Origin: Polyangium sp. 15x6
GTDB lineage: Bacteria; Myxococcota_A; Polyangia; Polyangiales; Polyangiaceae
Direction of reading: 5' to 3'
Assembly (NCBI RefSeq): GCF_029960785.1
Contig: NZ_JASBQE010000077.1
Span: 1-56,958 of the forward strand
Length of the DNA stretch: 56,958 nucleotides
Both the position numbers and the translations under genes were made by a program. How positions within the stretch are numbered: position 1 is the stretch's first letter; every line of letters begins with the position of its first letter. The notes beneath the pieces were generated by a model. It was given only the letters and a program-made list of their open reading frames with translations. It was not told the origin of the DNA and did not search any database. Shown here piece after piece: positions 1-56,958 of the stretch.

Positions 1-107
1 GGAAAAACCGCGCATCGCGCGGTTTTTCCGCCTTCGGTCCAGGCCGTGCCTGGTCCGGGGTGCAGGGGGCGGACAGCCCCCTGCTGGGGTGCGGGGCGAC
101 GCCCCGC
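1..107 (-). repeat. Four-hairpin 3'-end element, copy 1 (A-B-C-D)
   Basis: Read on the minus strand after the lipoprotein stop codon, four hairpins follow in order. A (91-107) has stem GCGGGGC and loop GTC. B (62-84) has stem GCAGGGGGC and loop TGTCC. C (39-53) has stem CCAGGC and loop ACG. D (1-29) has stem GGAAAAACCGCGC and loop GAT. A begins 5 nt after the stop codon at 113-115. D touches the window edge, so a facing copy beyond it cannot be excluded. The same order and loops recur near 44.2, 50.1, 50.3 and 56.7-57.0 kb. D ends in a run of T on the transcript, so this copy could act as an intrinsic terminator. Confidence 0.85.
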
Positions 108-15757: not shown

Positions 15758-18700
15758 CTACGCTGCCTTGCGCCGCCGGCGCGCCGCCACGAGCGCGCCC
15801 GCGAGCACGAGGACGACCGCGCAGCCCGCGTCGCGGGTCTCGCCGACGGTCCGGCAGCCGCAGCTCTCGTCACTGCCCGGGTCGCGTCCGCCAGTGCCCG
15901 CGCCGCCTTCGCCGCCGGCGCCGCCCATGCCGCCGGCGCCGCCCATGCCGCCGTCGCCGCCGCCGCCTGCGCCGCCCTGGCCTTCGAGCTTGCAGTCGAA
16001 GGTGCAGCCGTCGCCGGAGACGCCGTTCGCATCGTCGCACTCCTCCGTGCCACCCCAGACGAACCCGTCGCCGCAGCTCGCCTTGAGGCAGCCGCTCAGG
16101 CAGGCGTCGAAGTTCGACGCATTGCCGTCGTCGCAAGCCTCACCGGGCTGCACCACGCCGTCGCCGCACGTCGCGCTCGTGCACAGGTTCGAGCACGCGT
16201 CGTCGTTGTTCTGGTTGCCGTCGTCGCAGCTCTCGACGCCGAGCTCGACGTAGCCGTCACCGCAGGCCGCGGCCTTGCAGTCCTGCACGCAAGCGTCGGA
16301 GTTCGAGCTGTTCGCGTCGTCGCAGTCCTCGACGCCATCGAGGACGAACCCGTCGCCGCACGTTGCGTCCTCGCACGTCGTCGGGCACTCGTCGGTGTCG
16401 TCGGAGTTGCCGTCGTCGCACGCCTCCACGTCCGCGCGGACGAACCCGTCGCCGCACGTCGCGTTCTTGCACGTCACGAGGCACGCGTCCGTGTTCGACG
16501 CGTTGCCGTCGTCGCACTCCTCGTTCGGGCCCACGATGCCGTCCCCGCACCCCGGTAGGCTGCAGTTGTTCTTGCAGCCGTCGGTGTCGTTCTGGTTGCC
16601 GTCGTCGCAGGCCTCGACGCCGCCTTGCACGTAGCCGTCACCGCACGACGCGCTCTTGCAATCAAGGACGCAGGCGTCCGTGTTCGACGCGTTGCCGTCG
16701 TCGCACGACTCGACGCCCTGCTGGACGACGCCGTCGCCGCACGTCGCGTTCTTGCAGGCGTTGAGGCATGCGTCGCCGTTCGTCAGGTTGCCGTCGTCGC
16801 ACTCCTCGACGCCCGCCTGCACGAACCCGTCGCCGCACGTCGCGTTCTTGCACGTCGACGGGCACTGGTCGCTGTTCACCACGTTCCCGTCGTCGCACTC
16901 CTCGACGCCCGCCTGCACGAACCCGTCGCCGCACGAGGCCGGCTTGCAGGTCGAGAGGCAGCCATCGGTGTTCGACATGTTCCCGTCGTCGCACGTCTCG
17001 ACGCCCGCTTGCACGAAGCCGTCGCCGCACGTCGCGGTCTTGCAGCCCATGATGCAGCCGTCGGTGTCCGACATGTTCCCGTCGTCGCACTGCTCGACGC
17101 CGGCCTGCACGAACCCGTCGCCGCACGACGCGGACTGACACGAGGCGAGGCAGCCGTCGGTGTTCGACGTGTTCCCGTCGTCGCACGTCTCGACGCCCAC
17201 CTGCACATGGCCGTCGCCGCACGACGCGGTCTTGCAGCCTGCGACGCACCCGTCGTTGTTCGACATGTTCCCGTCGTCGCATTGCTCGACGCCGACGTTC
17301 ACGTAGCCGTCGCCGCACGAGGCCGGGATGCACATCGCGAGGCACGCGTCGCCGTTCGACGTGTTCCCGTCGTCGCACTGCTCGACGCCCATCTGCACGA
17401 ACCCGTCGCCGCACGAGGCCATGACGCACGTGGTCAAGCAGGCGTCCGTGTTCGACGCGTTCGCGTCGTCGCACTGCTCGGGGCCGTTGACCATGCCGTC
17501 ACCGCAACGCGGGCCTTGCCCGGAGCAATCGGCCTTGCAGGAGCCGTACTGGCCGTTCAGCACGCCGTCGTCGCAGATCTCGCCGCCGTTCGTCACGCCG
17601 TCGCCGCAGAAGAAGGACGGCGCGTACTCGTAGGCGCCCATGTCGTACGCGGCGCCGTTGATCCCGTCGCCGTCGATCGGGCGGAGCTTGCCTTCGATGT
17701 CCGAGTTCGGCGCGCCCATCGGCGTGCCCGCGTCGATACACACGCTGCCGGCCGCGAGCTTGAGGTCCGTCGGCGCGTTGACGAAGTTCGGGTTCTGCGA
17801 GATGCAGCCCGCGCCCGCGGTGACGCTGGAATAGTTGCCGCTCGTGTTGCCCCAGACGTTGGAGTACGTGATGTTCGCCGCCGTCGTGCCGTTGGCGGTC
17901 GCGCGATAGACGCCGTACTGCTGCGGGCTCGACGCCAGGCTCGTGATGATGGCGTTCTTGATGTTGACGGACATGGATCCGCCGGTCGACGCGAAGACGT
18001 ACACGCCGTAGGTGCCGTTGCCGTGGATCGTCGCGTTCGTCAGGTTGAGCGTGCCGGTCGCGCCGCTCGACGCGCCCGTGCGCACGCCGTACGTGCCGCT
18101 CGTGCGGATGAGGGCGTTCTCGATCGTCGTGATCGAATTGCCGCTATTCGGCACGAAATACAGGCCCAAGGTCGCGTTCCCTTTGAGCGTCAACCCCTGC
18201 ACCGTGGGCGCGGCGGTGCCCGTCACGTACATGCCGTACGAGCCGTTGTTCGCCGTGACGTTCTTCAGCATCGGGGTGCCCGCCTCGAGGTAGACGCCGT
18301 ACGTCGACGCCTCGCTCGCCACGTTCGTGAGCGAGAGGAGCAAGCCGTTGGCCACCGAGCGCACCGCGTACGATGCGTACTGCAGGTTCACGTTCGTCAG
18401 CGTCGCGCCCTTCGACGTCGACGGGACCACGACGCCGTACCAGTTGCCCGCGCCCACCGTCGTCGCGCGCAGCGTTATCGGTGAGGCACTCGTGCCGAGC
18501 GCGTCCAGCGTGCCGTTCACGCGGATCTCGCCGCGCCCCGTGTCGTCGCCCGACGCCATGAGGTCGCCGTTCGAGAAGTTCACCACCACCCCGGGCTCGA
18601 TCGTGAGCTTCGCGCTCGGACCGACCGTCATGTCGCCCGCGATCGTGTACGGCGACCCCGCGAGCGTCAGCGTCGTGTTGACCCACAACGTCCCGTGGTA

Positions 18701-41747: not shown

Positions 41748-42641
41748 ATGTCGTATCGAGCGGGTGATGTCATCGACGGTCGGTACAAGCTCCTCGACCT
41801 CATCGGCAGCGGCGGCCACGGCTACGTGTTCCGGGCCGAGGACATGGACCTCAGCGCGCCCGTCGCCGTGAAGTGCCTCCTGCCGAACATCACGAGCGAG
41901 CCCGTCTTCACGACGCGCATCGCCCGCGAGGCCCGCGCGATGGGCTTGCTCAGCGGCACGGCCGCGACGCAGATCCTCGCCTTCAACCGCTCGGACAACG
42001 GCACGCTCTACATCGTGATGGAGCTGCTCGAGGGCAAGGATCTCGAGGCCTACGTGCGCGGCGTCGAGGCGAAAGGCGGGCCCATGCCCATCGATCGCGC
42101 GCTCGAGATCATGCGGCCCGTCGCCGAGACGCTCTCCGCCGCGCACGCGCGCGGCATCGTGCACCGCGACGTCAAACCCGCGAACATCTTCGTCCTGCGC
42201 ACGCGCGCGCGGGGCCGCGTGCGGCTGCTCGACTTCGGTCTCGCCAAGGAGGTCGGTGGTTTCACGGTGACGCGCGACGGCACCATCGCCGGATCTCCGA
42301 CGTACATGGCGCCCGAGATCTGGGCGGGCAAACCCAAGGACCTCGATCACCGCGCCGACGTCTACTCGTTCGGCGCCGTCGTCTTCCGCATGATCGGCGG
42401 CAGGCTCCCGTTCCCCGCGCGCAAGATGGTGGAACTTTTGCGCGCTGTCTCGACGGACCCGCGCCCGAGCCTGCTCGCGCTCCGGCCCGATCTGCCGGAG
42501 GCCGTGGATCCGTGGGTCGCGCGTGTGCTCGCGAGCCAGCCGGCGCACCGCTTCACGTCGATGCAGGAGGCGTGGACAGAGCTCTGCAAGGCGCTCGGTC
42601 GCGCCACGGAGCTCGAGGACGACGATCTCGGCTTGCCTTGA
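41748..42641 (+). CDS. Ser/Thr protein kinase, catalytic domain only
   Basis: 297 residues from ATG 41748. One Hanks-type kinase domain: Gly loop IGSGGHGYVF, Lys42 (VAVK), catalytic HRDVKPAN (Asp141), DFG (162-164), APE (188-190). Activation loop GFTVTRDGTIAGSPTY has Ser/Thr for autophosphorylation. It has no transmembrane helix, sensor domain or long tail, so control must come from partner proteins. A second kinase follows 31 nt later in the same direction, so they are probably an operon, with the second able to phosphorylate or be phosphorylated by this one. Divergent from the S9 lipoprotein gene. Confidence 0.93.
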   Translation: MSYRAGDVIDGRYKLLDLIGSGGHGYVFRAEDMDLSAPVAVKCLLPNITSEPVFTTRIAREARAMGLLSGTAATQILAFNRSDNGTLYIVMELLEGKDLEAYVRGVEAKGGPMPIDRALEIMRPVAETLSAAHARGIVHRDVKPANIFVLRTRARGRVRLLDFGLAKEVGGFTVTRDGTIAGSPTYMAPEIWAGKPKDLDHRADVYSFGAVVFRMIGGRLPFPARKMVELLRAVSTDPRPSLLALRPDLPEAVDPWVARVLASQPAHRFTSMQEAWTELCKALGRATELEDDDLGLP

Positions 42642-42672
42642 ATCGGCGTTTGTCTGCCCTTACCCTCGGCAC

Positions 42673-44184
42673 ATGTCGGACCCCGGCGCGGACACGGTGC
42701 CGATCTTTCTTCTCGCCCCCGCGCAGCTCTTCCACGAGCGATACCGCATCGTGCGCACCATCCGCACGGGCGGAATGGGCGCGGTCTACGAGGCCACGGA
42801 CGAACGCACGGCCGGCCGCCGCGCCCTGAAGATCATCCACCCGACCCTGCTCGCCGAGCACGCGGACTTCAAGGCGCGCTTCGAGCGCGAGGCGCGGATC
42901 CTCGGGGAGCTCGAGAGTGATCACATCGTCCGCGTGATCGACGCCGGCGTGGACGCGCCCTCGGGTTTGCCCTTCCTCGCGATGGAGCTCCTGCGCGGGC
43001 GGGACCTCGGCATGATCGTCGCCGAGCGTGGCGCCCTGCCCCCCGGCGAGGTGCGCACCTACCTCGCGCAAGCCGCGTTCGCGCTCGACAAGACGCACGC
43101 GGCGGGCGTCGTGCACCGCGACATCAAGCCCGACAACCTCTTTCTCACGTACCGCGACGACGGCTCGCCGTGCCTCAAGCTGCTCGACTTCGGCATCGCC
43201 AAGGCGGACGGCCACCTCGGCATCGGGATGCAGACGAAGACGATCCTCGGCAGCCCCTACTTCATGGCGCCCGAGCAGATCTTCATGGACCAGCCCATCG
43301 GCCTCGCCGTCGACGTCTACGCGCTCGGGCACACGGCGTTCATGCTGCTCGTCGGCGCGCCGTACTGGGCCGAGGAGTTCGAGAAGGCGCCGTCGATCAT
43401 CACGCTCGCGCGTTGCCTCGACAACCCGCTGCCCGAGCCCCCCGCGACGCGGGCATGGCGGCGTCACGCCGTGGAGCTGCCCGCGGGGGTCGACGCCTGG
43501 TTTTTTCGGTGCGTCGCGCGGAACCCGGGCGATCGATTCCCGAGCGCCTCCGCCGCGATCGTCGCGCTCTCCGAGGTCCTCTTCCCCGCGGACGCCCTGG
43601 GCCCGAGCTACTCGACGCCGCCTCCGCCGCGGGAGCCCTACATTTCGGTGTCGTACGAGTCGACGCCGCCGCCCCCCCCGGCGCGCAGCTCCCGCCCCTC
43701 GACCCCGCCGTCGAGCGAGGAGACGAAGCACCCGACGCCGTCACGGACGAGCCGGCATTCGACGCCGCCGAGCTCGCTGGACCGGGTGAAGTCGTCCGTG
43801 TCGCGGCCCCGGAGCGGGCACGCGATCCGCGTGGACCGGGAGCGCAGGCTCGTGCGGCTTTCGGTGTGGGGCTTCTGGACCGTGGATCAGGCGCGGGCCT
43901 ACTACGAGGAGTTCGCGCGCGTGACGCAGCCGCTCTGGGGCAAGCGCTGGCGCGTCCTCGCGGACACCTCGGACTTCGCGGCCCAGAAGCCCGACGTGAG
44001 CGCGTTCGTGGAGCGGACGATGGAGGTCGCCCAGAAGAACGGCTGCATCCGGGCCGCGAACATCGTGTCGAGCACGCTGACGAAGATGCAGCTCGCGCGC
44101 ATGTCCGCCGAGCAAGGCCTGCCCTCGTTCGCATTCTTCCAGGACGAGGCCGAAGCCATGGTCTGGCTGCTCGACGGCACGTAG
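42673..44184 (+). CDS. Ser/Thr kinase with C-terminal STAS-like domain
   Basis: 503 residues from ATG 42673. Kinase domain (about 22-305): RTGGMGAVYEATD loop, Lys53, HRDIKPDN (148-155), DFG (172-174), APE (199-201). A Pro/Ser/Thr-rich linker (about 310-380) follows, rich in likely phosphorylation sites. The last 120 residues (AIRVDRERRLVRLSVWGFW, RWRVLADTSDFAAQKP, FFQDEAEAMVWLL) have the strand and helix order of SpoIIAA/STAS-like domains, in which a kinase often controls partner binding. This is a single-chain kinase and STAS unit. It is followed after 22 nt by four-hairpin element copy 2. Confidence 0.85.
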   Translation: MSDPGADTVPIFLLAPAQLFHERYRIVRTIRTGGMGAVYEATDERTAGRRALKIIHPTLLAEHADFKARFEREARILGELESDHIVRVIDAGVDAPSGLPFLAMELLRGRDLGMIVAERGALPPGEVRTYLAQAAFALDKTHAAGVVHRDIKPDNLFLTYRDDGSPCLKLLDFGIAKADGHLGIGMQTKTILGSPYFMAPEQIFMDQPIGLAVDVYALGHTAFMLLVGAPYWAEEFEKAPSIITLARCLDNPLPEPPATRAWRRHAVELPAGVDAWFFRCVARNPGDRFPSASAAIVALSEVLFPADALGPSYSTPPPPREPYISVSYESTPPPPPARSSRPSTPPSSEETKHPTPSRTSRHSTPPSSLDRVKSSVSRPRSGHAIRVDRERRLVRLSVWGFWTVDQARAYYEEFARVTQPLWGKRWRVLADTSDFAAQKPDVSAFVERTMEVAQKNGCIRAANIVSSTLTKMQLARMSAEQGLPSFAFFQDEAEAMVWLLDGT

Positions 44185-44197
44185 GGTGTGGTTTCAA

Positions 44198-44310
44198 AGC
44201 GTAGCGCCGGGGTTTCACCCCGGGCCCGACCAGGGGTTGTCCACCCCTGGACCCGGACCAGGCACGGCCTGGACCGAGGGTGCATCGACCGCGATGCGGT
44301 CGATGCACCC
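44198..44310 (+). repeat. Four-hairpin 3'-end element, copy 2
   Basis: After the kinase stop at 44184 and the leader AGCGTAGCG come A (44207-44223, stem CCGGGGT, loop TTC), B (44230-44250, stem CCAGGGGT, loop TGTCC), C (44258-44272, stem CCAGGC, loop ACG) and D (44278-44310, stem GGGTGCATCGACCGC, loop GAT; 15 perfect bp). D ends 3 nt before the stop codon of the convergent gene, so only one copy is present in this convergent pair. Leader, A and B match copy 4 almost exactly while D does not. Confidence 0.88.
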
Positions 44311-44313
44311 GAT

Positions 44314-46524
44314 TCAACCGAGCAAGAACTTGCGGATCCGACCCGCGAGCCCGTCCGTGCTCGTCGGCCTCGTGCGGCCTTCCCGATCGAGCTGCCGCGC
44401 AGCGATGAGCAGGCCGAGCTCGACCACGAGCTGCGGCCGTGACTCGATGATCGGCGCGAGCGCCTGCTTGCTGATCTCGTAGAGCGTCGACTCGCAGGTC
44501 GTACGCACGGTGGCGGTGCGGTCGCACCCCGTGAGCAGCGCGACCTCCCCGAAGACGGCGCCGCGCTCCAGCGTGGCCACGGCGACGTCCTGGCCGCCCT
44601 GCTGGCGCACGAGGACCTCGACCGTGCCCGAAGCGAGGATGAAGAGCGACGAACCCCGGTCGCCCTCGCGCACCACGCGATCATGCGGGCCGTAGACGAC
44701 GGGGCGCGTCTTCTGCGCGAGCCGCTCGACTTCGCGATCCGTGAGCGGCTTGAAGACCGGCACGCGGCGGAGGAGCGCCGCGATGTCGGCATGCGTGGGC
44801 TCGGGCCCGAGCGAGAGCGGCTCGGCCGCGTCGAGCCCGCCGCCGTAGCCGTCGCGACGCTGCAGGGCATCGACGAGGGAGCTGTCGCCGCGCATGTACG
44901 CCTCGAAGAGGCTCGCGGTGCGCGGGATGCACTCGTCGCCCGTGTGATCCATGAGCCCGCGCTCGCGGGCGAAGCGCGCGACCTCGTTCATCGACTGGCG
45001 GTACTGCCGGCACGCCGAGGGGAAGAGGCCGTCCTGATCCCCGAAGGCCCCCGTCAGCGACTCGGGGAGCGCGTAGCTGCCGAAGACGCCGCGCTGGTGC
45101 CACATGGCGAAGTCGCGCGTGCGTTGGTCGAGCCAACCGAGCTCGGGGAACGCGGCGAGGCCGTTCTTGAGGACCGCGCGCTCGGCGTCGCGGAAGACGC
45201 GGTGCCAGGTCTCCTGCGCGTTCTCGACGTTCGGCCCGGCGAGCGCGATGGCGTGCTTCAGGTCCTCGTGGTGCGCGTGCAGGAACGCGAGCGTCGCCTT
45301 CTGCTTGCGCAAGAGGTTCGCGAAGCTCACGGGCCCGGCCGCGAGCAGATCCGACGAGCGCGGGACGATCTCGCGCATGGCCCAGACCCGCCTCCACGCC
45401 GTGACGTCGAGCCGCTCGCGGATCTTGGCGAAGACCGGGCTCTTCTCGAACACCTGGCGCTCGGCCGGCGAGAGCAGATCCGGGTGCTCGGCCCGCACGG
45501 CCTCGAAGATGCCGAGGCACGTGAGCAGCTCCAGGTACAGCCCGACGCGCAGGAGCCACGCGGGATCGGGGAGGTTTCGCCGCTGCTCGCCGAGGTCCTG
45601 CCGGATGGCGTGCAGGTAGAGCATCGCCTTGTCGGTCCCGATCGTGAGGACCGGGAACCACGGGTGGTATCCGACGTGCAGATCCGGGATGTCCAGCGCG
45701 TCGGCCTGCAGCTTGGTGTCGGCCGGGATGAGCCGCTCGCAGAGCCGCGCGTAGAGCGATCCGAAGCGGCCCGTGTCGTAGATCTCGGCCTCGATCGTGT
45801 CTGCGGCGACGTACTTGTTGCCCTCCGTGTGCAGGGCGAGCGTGACGCGCAGCTTCTGGTGGAAGAGGTGCGCGAACGTGAACGGATCGGCGCCGTCGGG
45901 CGTGCGCGCGCGCAGGGAGGGCGCGACCTCGGACCAGTCGTAGCCGCGCCCCTCGGGGCAGCCTTCGCGGCGCGGCAGGAGGGCCTCTGGGTTCAACGTC
46001 GCCGCGTAGACGGTCTTGTAGAACTCGTTCCACGACGCCTCCTCGATCGCGGGGAACGGGTACGCGGCGGCCGAGACGACCTGCGGCTTGAGCACGATGC
46101 CCGAAAGCCCCGGGACGGGGCACGCCGCGCCGTCGCCCTCGACGTGCGGCAGGAACTCGACCGACATGCGGACCTCGAACGATCGCTGGAACGGCGCGAC
46201 GTACGCGTAGAGGTCCTTCACCTGGTAGAGCAGGCAGAGGTCGTCGGTGTGCGCGCCGTTTGCCGCGGTCGACACGAGGCCCGCGTGCTCGCTCGCGCCG
46301 AGCCCGGGGCCGAGCGCCTCGTCCATCGGCCTTCGGCCCGCCTCGAACGGGACGATCTCGATCGCCGGCTCGAGCTCGGCGGACTCCTCCATCGGGTCCT
46401 TGCGCGACTCGAGCTCGCGCATGTACGCGCGCACGAACGCGAGCTTGTCCTCCCAGGACATGCCCGCGACGGGGCTCAGGAGAAGGCGCTTGAAGAGCTT
46501 CTTGAAGTCTCGGGGGTTCTGCAT
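44314..46524 (-). CDS. Cyclic nucleotide-binding protein with unknown N-terminal domain
   Basis: 736 residues. The C-terminus (about 590-715) is a cyclic nucleotide-binding (Crp-type) domain: LRRVPVFKPLTDREVERLA, VVREGDRGSSLFILASG, and the phosphate cassette FGEVALLTGCDRTATV with Gly-Glu and Arg in place. There is no HTH, so it is a ligand-gated sensor, not a Crp regulator. The first 560 residues match nothing I know. They contain His-rich helices (HAHHEDLKHAIALAG) and conserved-looking Trp and Tyr, and may be an enzyme or metal-binding domain. The start overlaps the FMO gene by 49 nt, so the two belong together. Confidence 0.75.
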   Translation of the reverse strand: MQNPRDFKKLFKRLLLSPVAGMSWEDKLAFVRAYMRELESRKDPMEESAELEPAIEIVPFEAGRRPMDEALGPGLGASEHAGLVSTAANGAHTDDLCLLYQVKDLYAYVAPFQRSFEVRMSVEFLPHVEGDGAACPVPGLSGIVLKPQVVSAAAYPFPAIEEASWNEFYKTVYAATLNPEALLPRREGCPEGRGYDWSEVAPSLRARTPDGADPFTFAHLFHQKLRVTLALHTEGNKYVAADTIEAEIYDTGRFGSLYARLCERLIPADTKLQADALDIPDLHVGYHPWFPVLTIGTDKAMLYLHAIRQDLGEQRRNLPDPAWLLRVGLYLELLTCLGIFEAVRAEHPDLLSPAERQVFEKSPVFAKIRERLDVTAWRRVWAMREIVPRSSDLLAAGPVSFANLLRKQKATLAFLHAHHEDLKHAIALAGPNVENAQETWHRVFRDAERAVLKNGLAAFPELGWLDQRTRDFAMWHQRGVFGSYALPESLTGAFGDQDGLFPSACRQYRQSMNEVARFARERGLMDHTGDECIPRTASLFEAYMRGDSSLVDALQRRDGYGGGLDAAEPLSLGPEPTHADIAALLRRVPVFKPLTDREVERLAQKTRPVVYGPHDRVVREGDRGSSLFILASGTVEVLVRQQGGQDVAVATLERGAVFGEVALLTGCDRTATVRTTCESTLYEISKQALAPIIESRPQLVVELGLLIAARQLDREGRTRPTSTDGLAGRIRKFLLG

Positions 46525-50039: not shown

Positions 50040-50147
50040 GCGGGGCGTCGCCCCGCACCCCAGCAGGGGGCTGTCCGCCCCCTGCACCCCGGACCAGCGC
50101 AAGCGCTGGACTCGGGGTCGATGAACTGCGCGATGCGCAGTTCATCG
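50040..50147 (+). repeat. Four-hairpin 3'-end element, copy 3
   Basis: A (50040-50056, stem GCGGGGC, loop GTC), B (50063-50085, stem GCAGGGGGC, loop TGTCC), C (50094-50109, stem CCAGCGC around AA), D (50119-50147, stem CGATGAACTGCGC, loop GAT). Around C a further outer stem is possible (ACCCCG at 50086-50091 with CGGGGT at 50113-50118). A and B are the same as in copy 1. It lies directly behind the TetR gene and faces copy 4. Confidence 0.9.
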
Positions 50148-50226
50148 AACAGGCCCTGGCAAGACCGCGAGGCCTCGCCCATCGAGACAGCAGCGCTGCC
50201 CTGCGTGCTGGCGACGTCTTCCCTGT
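50148..50226. other. Spacer between facing element copies 3 and 4
   Basis: 79 bp with no gene. It starts A-ACAGG and ends CCTGT, so its ends can pair. The equivalent spacer at 56808-56857 has the same end sequences, indicating that the spacer is part of the paired structure. Confidence 0.6.
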
Positions 50227-50336
50227 CGACAGCGCGCATCGCGCGCTGTCGCCCCGGGTCCAGCGCTTGCGCTGGTCCGGGTCCAGGGGTGGACAACCCC
50301 TGGTCGGGGTCCGGGGTGAAACCCCGGCGCTACGCT
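50227..50336 (-). repeat. Four-hairpin 3'-end element, copy 4
   Basis: Read on minus from the thiC stop codon (50362-50360): leader AGCGTAGCG, A (50311-50327, stem CCGGGGT, loop TTC), B (50283-50303, stem CCAGGGGT, loop TGTCC), C (50260-50275, stem CCAGCGC around AA), D (50227-50251, stem CGACAGCGCGC, loop GAT). Leader, A and B match copy 2; C matches copy 3; D is unique. Faces copy 3 tail to tail. Confidence 0.9.
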
Positions 50337-50359: not shown

Positions 50360-52334
<1,975 letters not shown>

Positions 52335-52346
52335 GGTCGAGCGGTG

Positions 52347-56704: not shown

Positions 56705-56807
56705 CCGGGGCGCTGCCCCGGACCCCGCGGGGGCTGTTCGCCCCTCGACCCGAACCAGGGCAAGCCCTGGACCATTTGGGAAGAACTGCGCGGTGCGCAG
56801 TTCTTCC
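56705..56807 (+). repeat. Four-hairpin 3'-end element, copy 5
   Basis: A (56705-56721, stem CCGGGGC, loop GCT), B (56729-56745, stem GGGGGC, loop TGTTC, closing on a G-T pair), C (56755-56770, stem CCAGGGC around AA), D (56779-56807, stem GGAAGAACTGCGC, loop GGT). The most diverged copy in loops, yet all four stems are kept. Confidence 0.85.
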
Positions 56808-56857
56808 ACAGGCCGGTGGGACCGCCCCGCCCGTCGCCGGTCTCGACCGGGCCTGTG
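56808..56857. other. Spacer between facing element copies 5 and 6
   Basis: 50 bp bounded by the 8-bp inverted repeat CACAGGCC (56807-56814) and GGCCTGTG (56850-56857). The spacer between copies 3 and 4 has matching ends (ACAGG and CCTGT). Confidence 0.65.
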
Positions 56858-56958
56858 CGATGAACTGCGCATCGCGCAGTTCATCGTCCTGGGTCCAGCC
56901 CCTGGCTGGTCCGGGTGCAGGGGCGGACAGCCCCTGCTGGGGCCTGGGGCAACGCCCC
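56858..56958 (-). repeat. Four-hairpin 3'-end element, copy 6 (cut by window end)
   Basis: On minus: A (56946-56958, stem GGGGC, loop GTT; cut), B (56917-56937, stem GCAGGGGC, loop TGTCC), C (56895-56909, stem CCAGCC, loop AGG), D (56858-56886, stem CGATGAACTGCGC, loop GAT). D is identical to that of copy 3. Its host gene should lie just beyond 56958 on the minus strand. Confidence 0.85.

Follow-up and report, generated by a model that had tools for sequence, protein, structure and literature searches.

In Polyangium sp. 15x6, a high-copy repeat is built from arms of about 105 nt, each a chain of four hairpins (A to D), and, as shown by covariation, the loops of hairpins A and B are predicted to dock in cis at the foot of the hairpin that follows, like two successive small H-type pseudoknots. 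The B contact would comprise three pairs of the H-type pseudoknot kind, one of which varies, and the A contact one pair and sometimes two. We propose, with about even confidence, that the arm is part of a non-autonomous REP/BIME-like mobile repeat that folds as an RNA 3'-end structure. The original prediction was made on six copies in a window of 56,958 nucleotides (the whole stretch of DNA analysed here, contig NZ_JASBQE010000077.1) and took constant B and D loops on variable stems to suggest loop recognition by a protein or loop-loop pairing, and not simple termination. Its pairing component is supported for B, with three exceptions in 2,095 matches, and for A, except that the partner is the adjacent linker and not another loop; its inference from loop constancy holds for B but fails for D, for which no partner stood out and whose loop varies and sometimes flips.

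All six A-B-C-D arms were located when the window was read. The arm to which the prediction referred is a single one on the forward strand (44207-44310). Its hairpin A (CCGGGGT-TTC-ACCCCGG, 44207-44223) carries a loop base, T44215, that would pair with A44229, the last base of the A-B linker (44224-44229) and the one directly 5' of hairpin B, in a contact that covaries as T-A/C-G; an additional pair between loop base C44216 and G44228 is possible. In hairpin B (CCAGGGGT-TGTCC-ACCCCTGG, 44230-44250, loop 44238-44242) the loop bases TCC (44240-44242) face, again with covariation, the GGA (44255-44257) that ends the B-C linker ACCCGGA (44251-44257) directly 5' of hairpin C (CCAGGC-ACG-GCCTGG, 44258-44272), and the arm closes with hairpin D (44278-44310), a perfect 15-bp stem with the loop GAT (44293-44295).

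The other five arms share this anatomy. Arm 1 (1-107, minus strand; A 91-107, B 62-84 with TGTCC, C 39-53, D 1-29 with GAT) extends past the contig start. A first facing pair (50040-50327) joins a plus-strand left arm (50040-50148; A 50040-50056, B 50063-50085 with TGTCC, C 50094-50109, D 50118-50148 with GAT) through a 78-bp body (50149-50226) to a minus-strand right arm (50227-50327; D 50227-50251 with GAT, C 50260-50275, B 50283-50303 with TGTCC, A 50311-50327). A second facing pair (56705-56958) consists of copy 5 on the plus strand (56705-56807; A 56705-56721, B 56729-56744 with TGTTC, C 56755-56770, D 56779-56807 with GGT) and a minus-strand right arm (56858-56958; D 56858-56886 with GAT, C 56895-56909, B 56917-56937 with TGTCC) whose hairpin A (56946-56958) is cut by the contig end. 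The loop counts given originally are thus exact: TGTCC in five of six B loops and GAT in five of six D loops, with TGTTC and GGT, respectively, in copy 5, the arm at 56705. That arm is a T/A arm in which loop and linker have both switched, TGTTC standing opposite the linker GAA. The three D stems quoted with these counts are also correct, although the contrast between them is one of three stem classes, within which the stem is nearly constant. Two further features of the window are a TPP riboswitch (52229-52343, minus strand) above the Rfam gathering score and an array of ~96-bp repeats (15989-17608) with the conserved motifs CCGTCGTCGCA and CCGTCGCCGCA.

As far as searched, the repeat is confined to Polyangium. 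A combined B-loop/linker pattern returned 2,095 matches in six genomes of the genus (612, 404, 269, 323, 430 and 57), and the 612 in the window's own 13.38-Mb genome mark it as a high-copy family; 74 arms counted in 1.65 Mb of that genome scale to about 600 per genome, in agreement with the direct matches. An 857-kb sample of the same genome holds 55 arms, arranged as 21 facing pairs and 13 single arms, and the 20 complete pairs in it span 266-339 bp between their outer A stems. The contiguous-stretch analyses (the 857-kb sample, gene placement, the 84-arm pairing test, the 106-arm D-loop count and the 1.65-Mb count) draw on contigs already known from earlier matches. Searching for the D hairpin with its loop left free gave 480 hairpins of one stem class in the window's genome, 37 in one other Polyangium genome and none in 94 other genomes of the order, and a covariance model of A-B-C matched 2 of 96 Polyangiales genomes, namely the window's and one congener. 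In a collection of named genomes the D hairpin appeared, among the matches listed, mainly in Polyangium fumosum and two other Polyangium strains, and none of the eight non-Polyangium stretches with a D hairpin among those matches carried the B-linker pattern. Phage and plasmid collections gave no match to the repeat, Rfam has no family at the elements (two elements searched with lax limits gave nothing near gathering scores), and no literature on such repeats in Polyangium or Sorangium was among the matches listed.

Both ends of the window's contig, positions 1 and 56958, lie inside repeat copies, and in several other contigs a copy is found no more than ~200 bases from an end; the repeat therefore seems to break the assembly, and the counts are possibly low. 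Copies elsewhere in the genome are up to 97% identical to the pair at 50040-50327. By-eye alignment finds GTAG or GTGG 5' of hairpin A in some arms, most of them with the A loop TTC, and not in others. The same genome also contains another palindrome family, in which TAGTCCC precedes (G)AGGGGGACGC-CTC-GCGTCCCCCT(C); the 857-kb sample has three copies (L033 at ~6004, L035 at ~106 and L045 at ~16399, minus strand).

The coupling of loop and linker is clearest for hairpin B. When more copies are aligned, the B loop is still constrained, the D loop proving looser: with a pattern that leaves the loop free, T-N-T-Y-C is found in 257 of 258 distinct arms, with T1, T3 and C5 constant in those 257 and TGTCC itself in 158. 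T1 is unpartnered in the proposed fold, and positions 3-5 (T-Y-C) are complementary to the G-R-A directly 5' of hairpin C. Two of these three contact pairs are invariant and so carry no information for or against pairing; the middle one varies. Across 257 distinct arms, B-loop position 4 and the middle linker base form C-G in 210, T-A in 46, T-G in one and C-A in none (in a subset of 253 arms 207, 45, 1 and 0), and genus-wide 2,092 of the 2,095 matches are C-G or T-A, with two T-G and one C-A. In the genus-wide pattern, loop (T-N-T-Y-C) and linker (G-R-A) are set in advance, so its counts measure coupling and not loop constancy. The sole C-A arm, in G096, is a composite of two sequence types, possibly through recombination. 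Among all column pairs of 251 aligned arms the B pair ranks eighth by background-corrected mutual information, the other members of the top ten, apart from the A contact, being stem pairs. Loci L072-L153, chosen among the matches listed by an exact D-stem pattern with free loop, and L002-L030, chosen by similarity to a window copy, are included in the 257/258-arm B count, the 251-arm alignment and the 253-arm D-loop count, as well as in the two-arm state comparisons, the codirectional-gene count and the count of bases opposite the linker described below. The closing pair of B showed two C-A and no T-G among about 150 matches listed.

A minimum-energy fold had raised the candidate that the linker state is set by extension of stem C, and this was rejected: the base opposite the linker is invariably C, both in the 46 T-A arms and in the 211 C-G arms (257 scorable arms; the rows of the 84-arm alignment are uninformative here, having been selected for that C). 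The folding tool concerned cannot predict pseudoknots.

For hairpin A, the middle base of the triloop covaries with the linker base that immediately precedes hairpin B. This pair ranks sixth by mutual information and is T-A in 160, C-G in 70, T-G in three and C-A in none of the 233 arms with letters at both positions, 18 of the 251 having been dropped for a gap at the A linker; an independent A pattern gave T-A in 128 and C-G in 57 of 185 distinct segments and no other combination. The A contact amounts to one conserved pair, at most two, and, with at least seven A triloops and several C loops, neither hairpin has a loop constant like that of B. Both contacts were also scored together in 84 distinct arms from contiguous stretches, where all 336 tertiary cells are paired and 30 double changes occur against a shuffle mean of 5.9, with none of 500 shuffles as high; partners slid by one to three columns fail. 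Two of the five measures in this comparison lie within the shuffles (pairs changed on both sides, 413/500; further pair types, 499/500) because few pairs vary.

Facing pairs place the contact within the arm. Their two arms differ in B state in 34 of 86 elements and in A state in 30 of 41, and every one of the arms concerned (68/68 and 60/60) is matched internally, which argues that the contact is formed in cis and led us to reject pairing of one arm with the other within an element. The corresponding counts of zero in trans follow automatically from this internal matching and are no separate evidence, and half of the trans combinations would be T-G wobbles, which were scored as unpaired. A further association in the 251-arm alignment links C-loop type to the first bases of the C-D linker (columns 67 and 78-79, ranks 13-14) and is mostly non-complementary.

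Might the loops be constant simply because all copies descend recently from a few master elements, with no selection on the loops? The near-identity of some copies fits such an origin, as do the D loops, whose alleles span stem classes and are sometimes flipped, and mosaic arms with a poorly resolved tree leave the number of independent A and B co-changes uncertain; for the same reasons, tree-based counts of nine switches for A and 24 for B are a rough guide only. For B, the idea is largely contradicted by the three exceptions in 2,095, by the occurrence of both C-G and T-A around identical intervening sequence in four of 13 contexts and by the near-freedom of loop position 2, whose association with the linker is weak (score 0.037, vs. 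0.635 for position 4); the shared contexts and the free position argue against simple block inheritance of the coupling. For A, the absence of exceptions in the 185 segments and the mere three wobbles in 233 arms point the same way, although only one intervening sequence is shared by both states and descent is consequently less well excluded there than for B. On balance we regard common descent as an improbable explanation of the constant loops.

Recognition of constant B and D loops in RNA by a protein, as the original prediction had suggested, appears more improbable still. It would account for the constancy of T1, T3 and C5 in the B loop, including a T1 that has no partner, but pairing with A and G can explain T3 and C5, and the D loops vary and in some cases flip. 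Docking of the B loop would explain why it stays T-N-T-Y-C while its variable position follows the linker.

Hairpin D calls for a different account. Of the 57 hairpins in the 857-kb sample that combine a 3-nt loop with a perfect stem of at least 11 bp, 39 have GAT or ATC as their loop, so the recurrence of GAT is not chance. In 106 arms from contiguous stretches, however, the D loop is GAT in 67, TCC in 17, GGT in eight, TTC in four, GAA in three and CAAG in two, with one each of AAT, TAC, AGC and AAAC and one arm without a clear D. A larger set of 253 arms, retained from 297 parsed records of which the remainder were seeded on the wrong hairpin, contains several loops together with their reverse complements (GAT 137/ATC 3, GAA 16/TTC 4, AAC 4/GTT 1, GCT 1/AGC 1), and flipped forms of TCC (38), GGT (27) and AAT (11) are absent from it. 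The stems fall into classes, TCGATGAACTGCGC, TGGAAGAACTGCGC, TGCATCGACCGC and others, that have an inner GCGC or GC in common, and the alleles GAT, TCC, GGT and GAA cut across them. Stem changes are mostly two-sided in the two main classes (13 vs. 7 and 27 vs. 4 among unique stems, some of these being subclass differences), and mismatches amount to seven of 1,412 pairs (one G-T, three A-C and three others; stems trimmed at their ends and one of the 106 arms left out). Mutual information across the 251 aligned arms singled out no partner for the D loop. Because the loop varies and some loops occur in both orientations, D by itself gives no evidence of loop recognition.

The D loop would instead be an inherited allele carried on a long stem, and not a recognition signal: the two sides of the stem may homogenise by template switching, which would yield paired stem changes while the loop drifts and sometimes flips. 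DNA template switching with homogenisation of the arms and inversion of the spacer is described in the passages we draw on from PMC8604942 and PMC8794818, where inverted repeats show, as D does here, changes on both sides of the stem together with loop inversion, including TTC/GAA. In the RNA genes covered in those passages of PMC8794818, a compensatory change together with loop inversion is extremely rare. Template switching of this kind would need no reader of the D loop; the Polyangium case differs from this precedent in spanning a mobile repeat family. Template switching is incapable, on the other hand, of producing the loop-linker coupling of A and B.

The placement of the arms, assessed with gene models from a purpose-made codon-usage script and no published gene finder, connects them to the 3' ends of genes. 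Only two of 73 arms lie inside predicted genes. In a count of 104 arms, with one edge and two intragenic arms left out, hairpin A starts within 40 nt past a stop codon in 68 (49 in the window's genome, 14 in G098 and five in G088), and the A side points toward a gene's 3' end in 79 (56/70, 16/25 and 7/9, respectively), compared with roughly half of intergenic gene ends overall; arms facing a 3' end lie a median of 20, 20.5 and 8 nt from the stop codon in the same three genomes. Elements lie between convergent genes in 18 of 30 cases with both neighbours known, compared to 105 of 585 intergenic regions, and among single arms between codirectional genes 17 point with the upstream gene and seven against it (p 0.064, in a partly selected set). 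The arm at 44207 illustrates the arrangement: it follows a plus-strand ORF (42523-44184, protein-kinase-like by eye, its true start possibly further in) whose TAG stop codon at 44182-44184 lies 22 nt upstream of hairpin A, and a convergent minus-strand ORF (44314-46524, by eye with a cyclic-nucleotide-binding-like C-terminus) ends 3 nt past hairpin D.

This location just past stop codons and between convergent genes is also what bidirectional transcription terminators with no specific fold requirement would show, and at two element-less sites in congeners another strong hairpin is found. The region 44100-44400 of the window, however, contains no G+C-rich hairpin followed by a T-run, consistent with the earlier contention that this is not simple termination; a terminator would do with fewer than four hairpins, and plain hairpins give no reason for loop-linker coupling, leaving plain termination highly improbable. 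Docking within an RNA 3' end remains the explanation we prefer. The A/B covariation argues that the fold is used. Given that arms sit just past stop codons and turn their A side to the gene, the likeliest use is in a transcribed 3' end: transcripts of the adjacent gene would end in the arm, the arm's compact fold would protect or define that end, and facing pairs between convergent genes would supply each gene with one arm in the sense direction.

The elements are insertions that differ between Polyangium species. At the site of the arm at 44207, the same two convergent genes are found in congeners G099 and G088, where their stop codons overlap and no element intervenes; the element is present in G098, and an unrelated insert of ~595 bp takes the place of the arm in G096 and G097. 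The pair at 50040-50327 is absent from G099, and altogether the element is missing at the matching site of at least one congener in 11 of 14 cases checked, comprising both queried window elements and nine of 12 others; the remaining three of these 12 had no spanning match in congeners. Element-less sites often have a few to ~100 other bases in the element's place. The ~595-bp insert (L160 in G097 and L161 in G096, matching window 44184-44319) contains, by eye, a short signal-peptide-like ORF and ends in a CCCCCTCTCC...GGAGAGGGGG hairpin, similar hairpins being found at two other element-less congener sites.

Such mobility raises the alternative that the fold acts as single-stranded DNA, the arms being the ends of a mobile element that a putative HUH-type or other transposase reads with the loops docked. 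TnpA-IS200/IS605 and TnpA-REP transposases read folded single-stranded DNA and contact its loops. In the portion of PMC8266576 that we draw on, the TnpA-REP of Stenotrophomonas recognises hairpin loops in single-stranded DNA, and that of S. maltophilia depends on the loop and a perfect stem. Presence that differs between species, the identical architecture at both ends of a paired element and the lack of any constant target-site duplication visible by eye at element-less sites all agree with such a role, as does the lack of an RNA-type wobble bias among the exceptions to pairing (two T-G vs. one C-A for the B pair; three T-G and no C-A for the A pair). These exceptions are too few for the wobble pairs to decide between RNA and DNA, and we discarded that approach. 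A search for Y1_Tnp (PF01797), on the other side, gave no match in G097, G098 and G099, three of the six genomes, which hold 269, 323 and 430 pattern matches; matches are full-length in G096 and G088, and in the window's genome only a partial IS200-like one (model positions 63-121) was found. A RAYT as mobiliser is therefore not supported. The partial match (L031, ~1459-2418) overlaps an opposite-strand ORF that is tyrosine-recombinase-like by eye. A single-stranded DNA role also does not require placement past stop codons with A toward the gene, although selection against harmful insertion could produce it. We consider that role possible but doubtful.

Taken one step further, the RNA 3'-end interpretation could mean that a mobile repeat spreads a complete RNA 3'-end module that serves as a genus-wide protector of mRNA ends, a proposal we advance tentatively and at less than even confidence. 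Such a module would consist of tandem pseudoknot-like docking of A and B followed by two hairpins, would insert right past the stop codons of hundreds of genes, and would provide each of two convergent genes with its own sense copy. The role of REP-like repeats has long been debated. In Polyangium, some two thousand copies in six genomes share a tertiary contact that is evidently constrained, so that a test with one-base and compensatory-base changes could ask whether the repeat acts as folded RNA or as folded DNA. The analysis also tells apart two origins of constant loops on varying stems, namely pairing for A and B, and inheritance with template switching for D.

The Polyangium repeat resembles REP, BIME and REPIN elements as portrayed in the relevant passages of PMC3733652 (see also PMC3116915). 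Those, too, are high-copy palindromic intergenic repeats, often in facing inverted pairs; they lie downstream of genes, whether the neighbouring genes converge or run in the same direction, and each family has variants of loop and stem. It differs in that those are single palindromes of 20-40 bp, whereas the Polyangium arms are chains of four hairpins and ~105 nt whose A and B loops pair with linkers. The GTAG or CGTC tag that ends REP/BIME/REPIN repeats has a counterpart in Polyangium only as the GTAG before hairpin A of some arms, and, unlike in REP/RAYT systems, a cognate Y1 transposase is missing from three of the six genomes and partial in the window's. The passages of PMC3733652 on loops and placement make no mention of loop-linker pairing, and among the matches listed for REP/BIME-related literature the word pseudoknot occurs only in PMC8169995, once in the text retrieved. 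Relative to REP/BIME repeats as those passages describe them, the docking contacts are new, and copy number, facing pairs and placement are shared.

In classical H-type RNA pseudoknots, which occur in tandem in plant-virus 3' ends and in minimal form in frameshifting signals, a hairpin's loop pairs with single-stranded sequence on its 3' side. The A and B contacts share with them a loop complementary to the 3' flanking strand and coupled changes on both sides. If the full 8-bp B stem is kept, the 4 nt of linker are few for a classical pseudoknot, and docking may require the outer B pairs to open; with only the 5-bp core of stem B retained, the arm matches the dimensions of small H-type pseudoknots, with a 5-bp stem, a 2-nt loop, a 3-bp second stem and a 7-nt linker. 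It departs from them in that covariation supports the outer pairs of stem B as well, and these compete with this relaxed linker. The second stem of an H-type pseudoknot has at least three contiguous pairs; B would form three, of which only the middle one varies, and A one covarying pair and at most one more. Finally, the Polyangium version differs in being carried by a mobile bacterial repeat.
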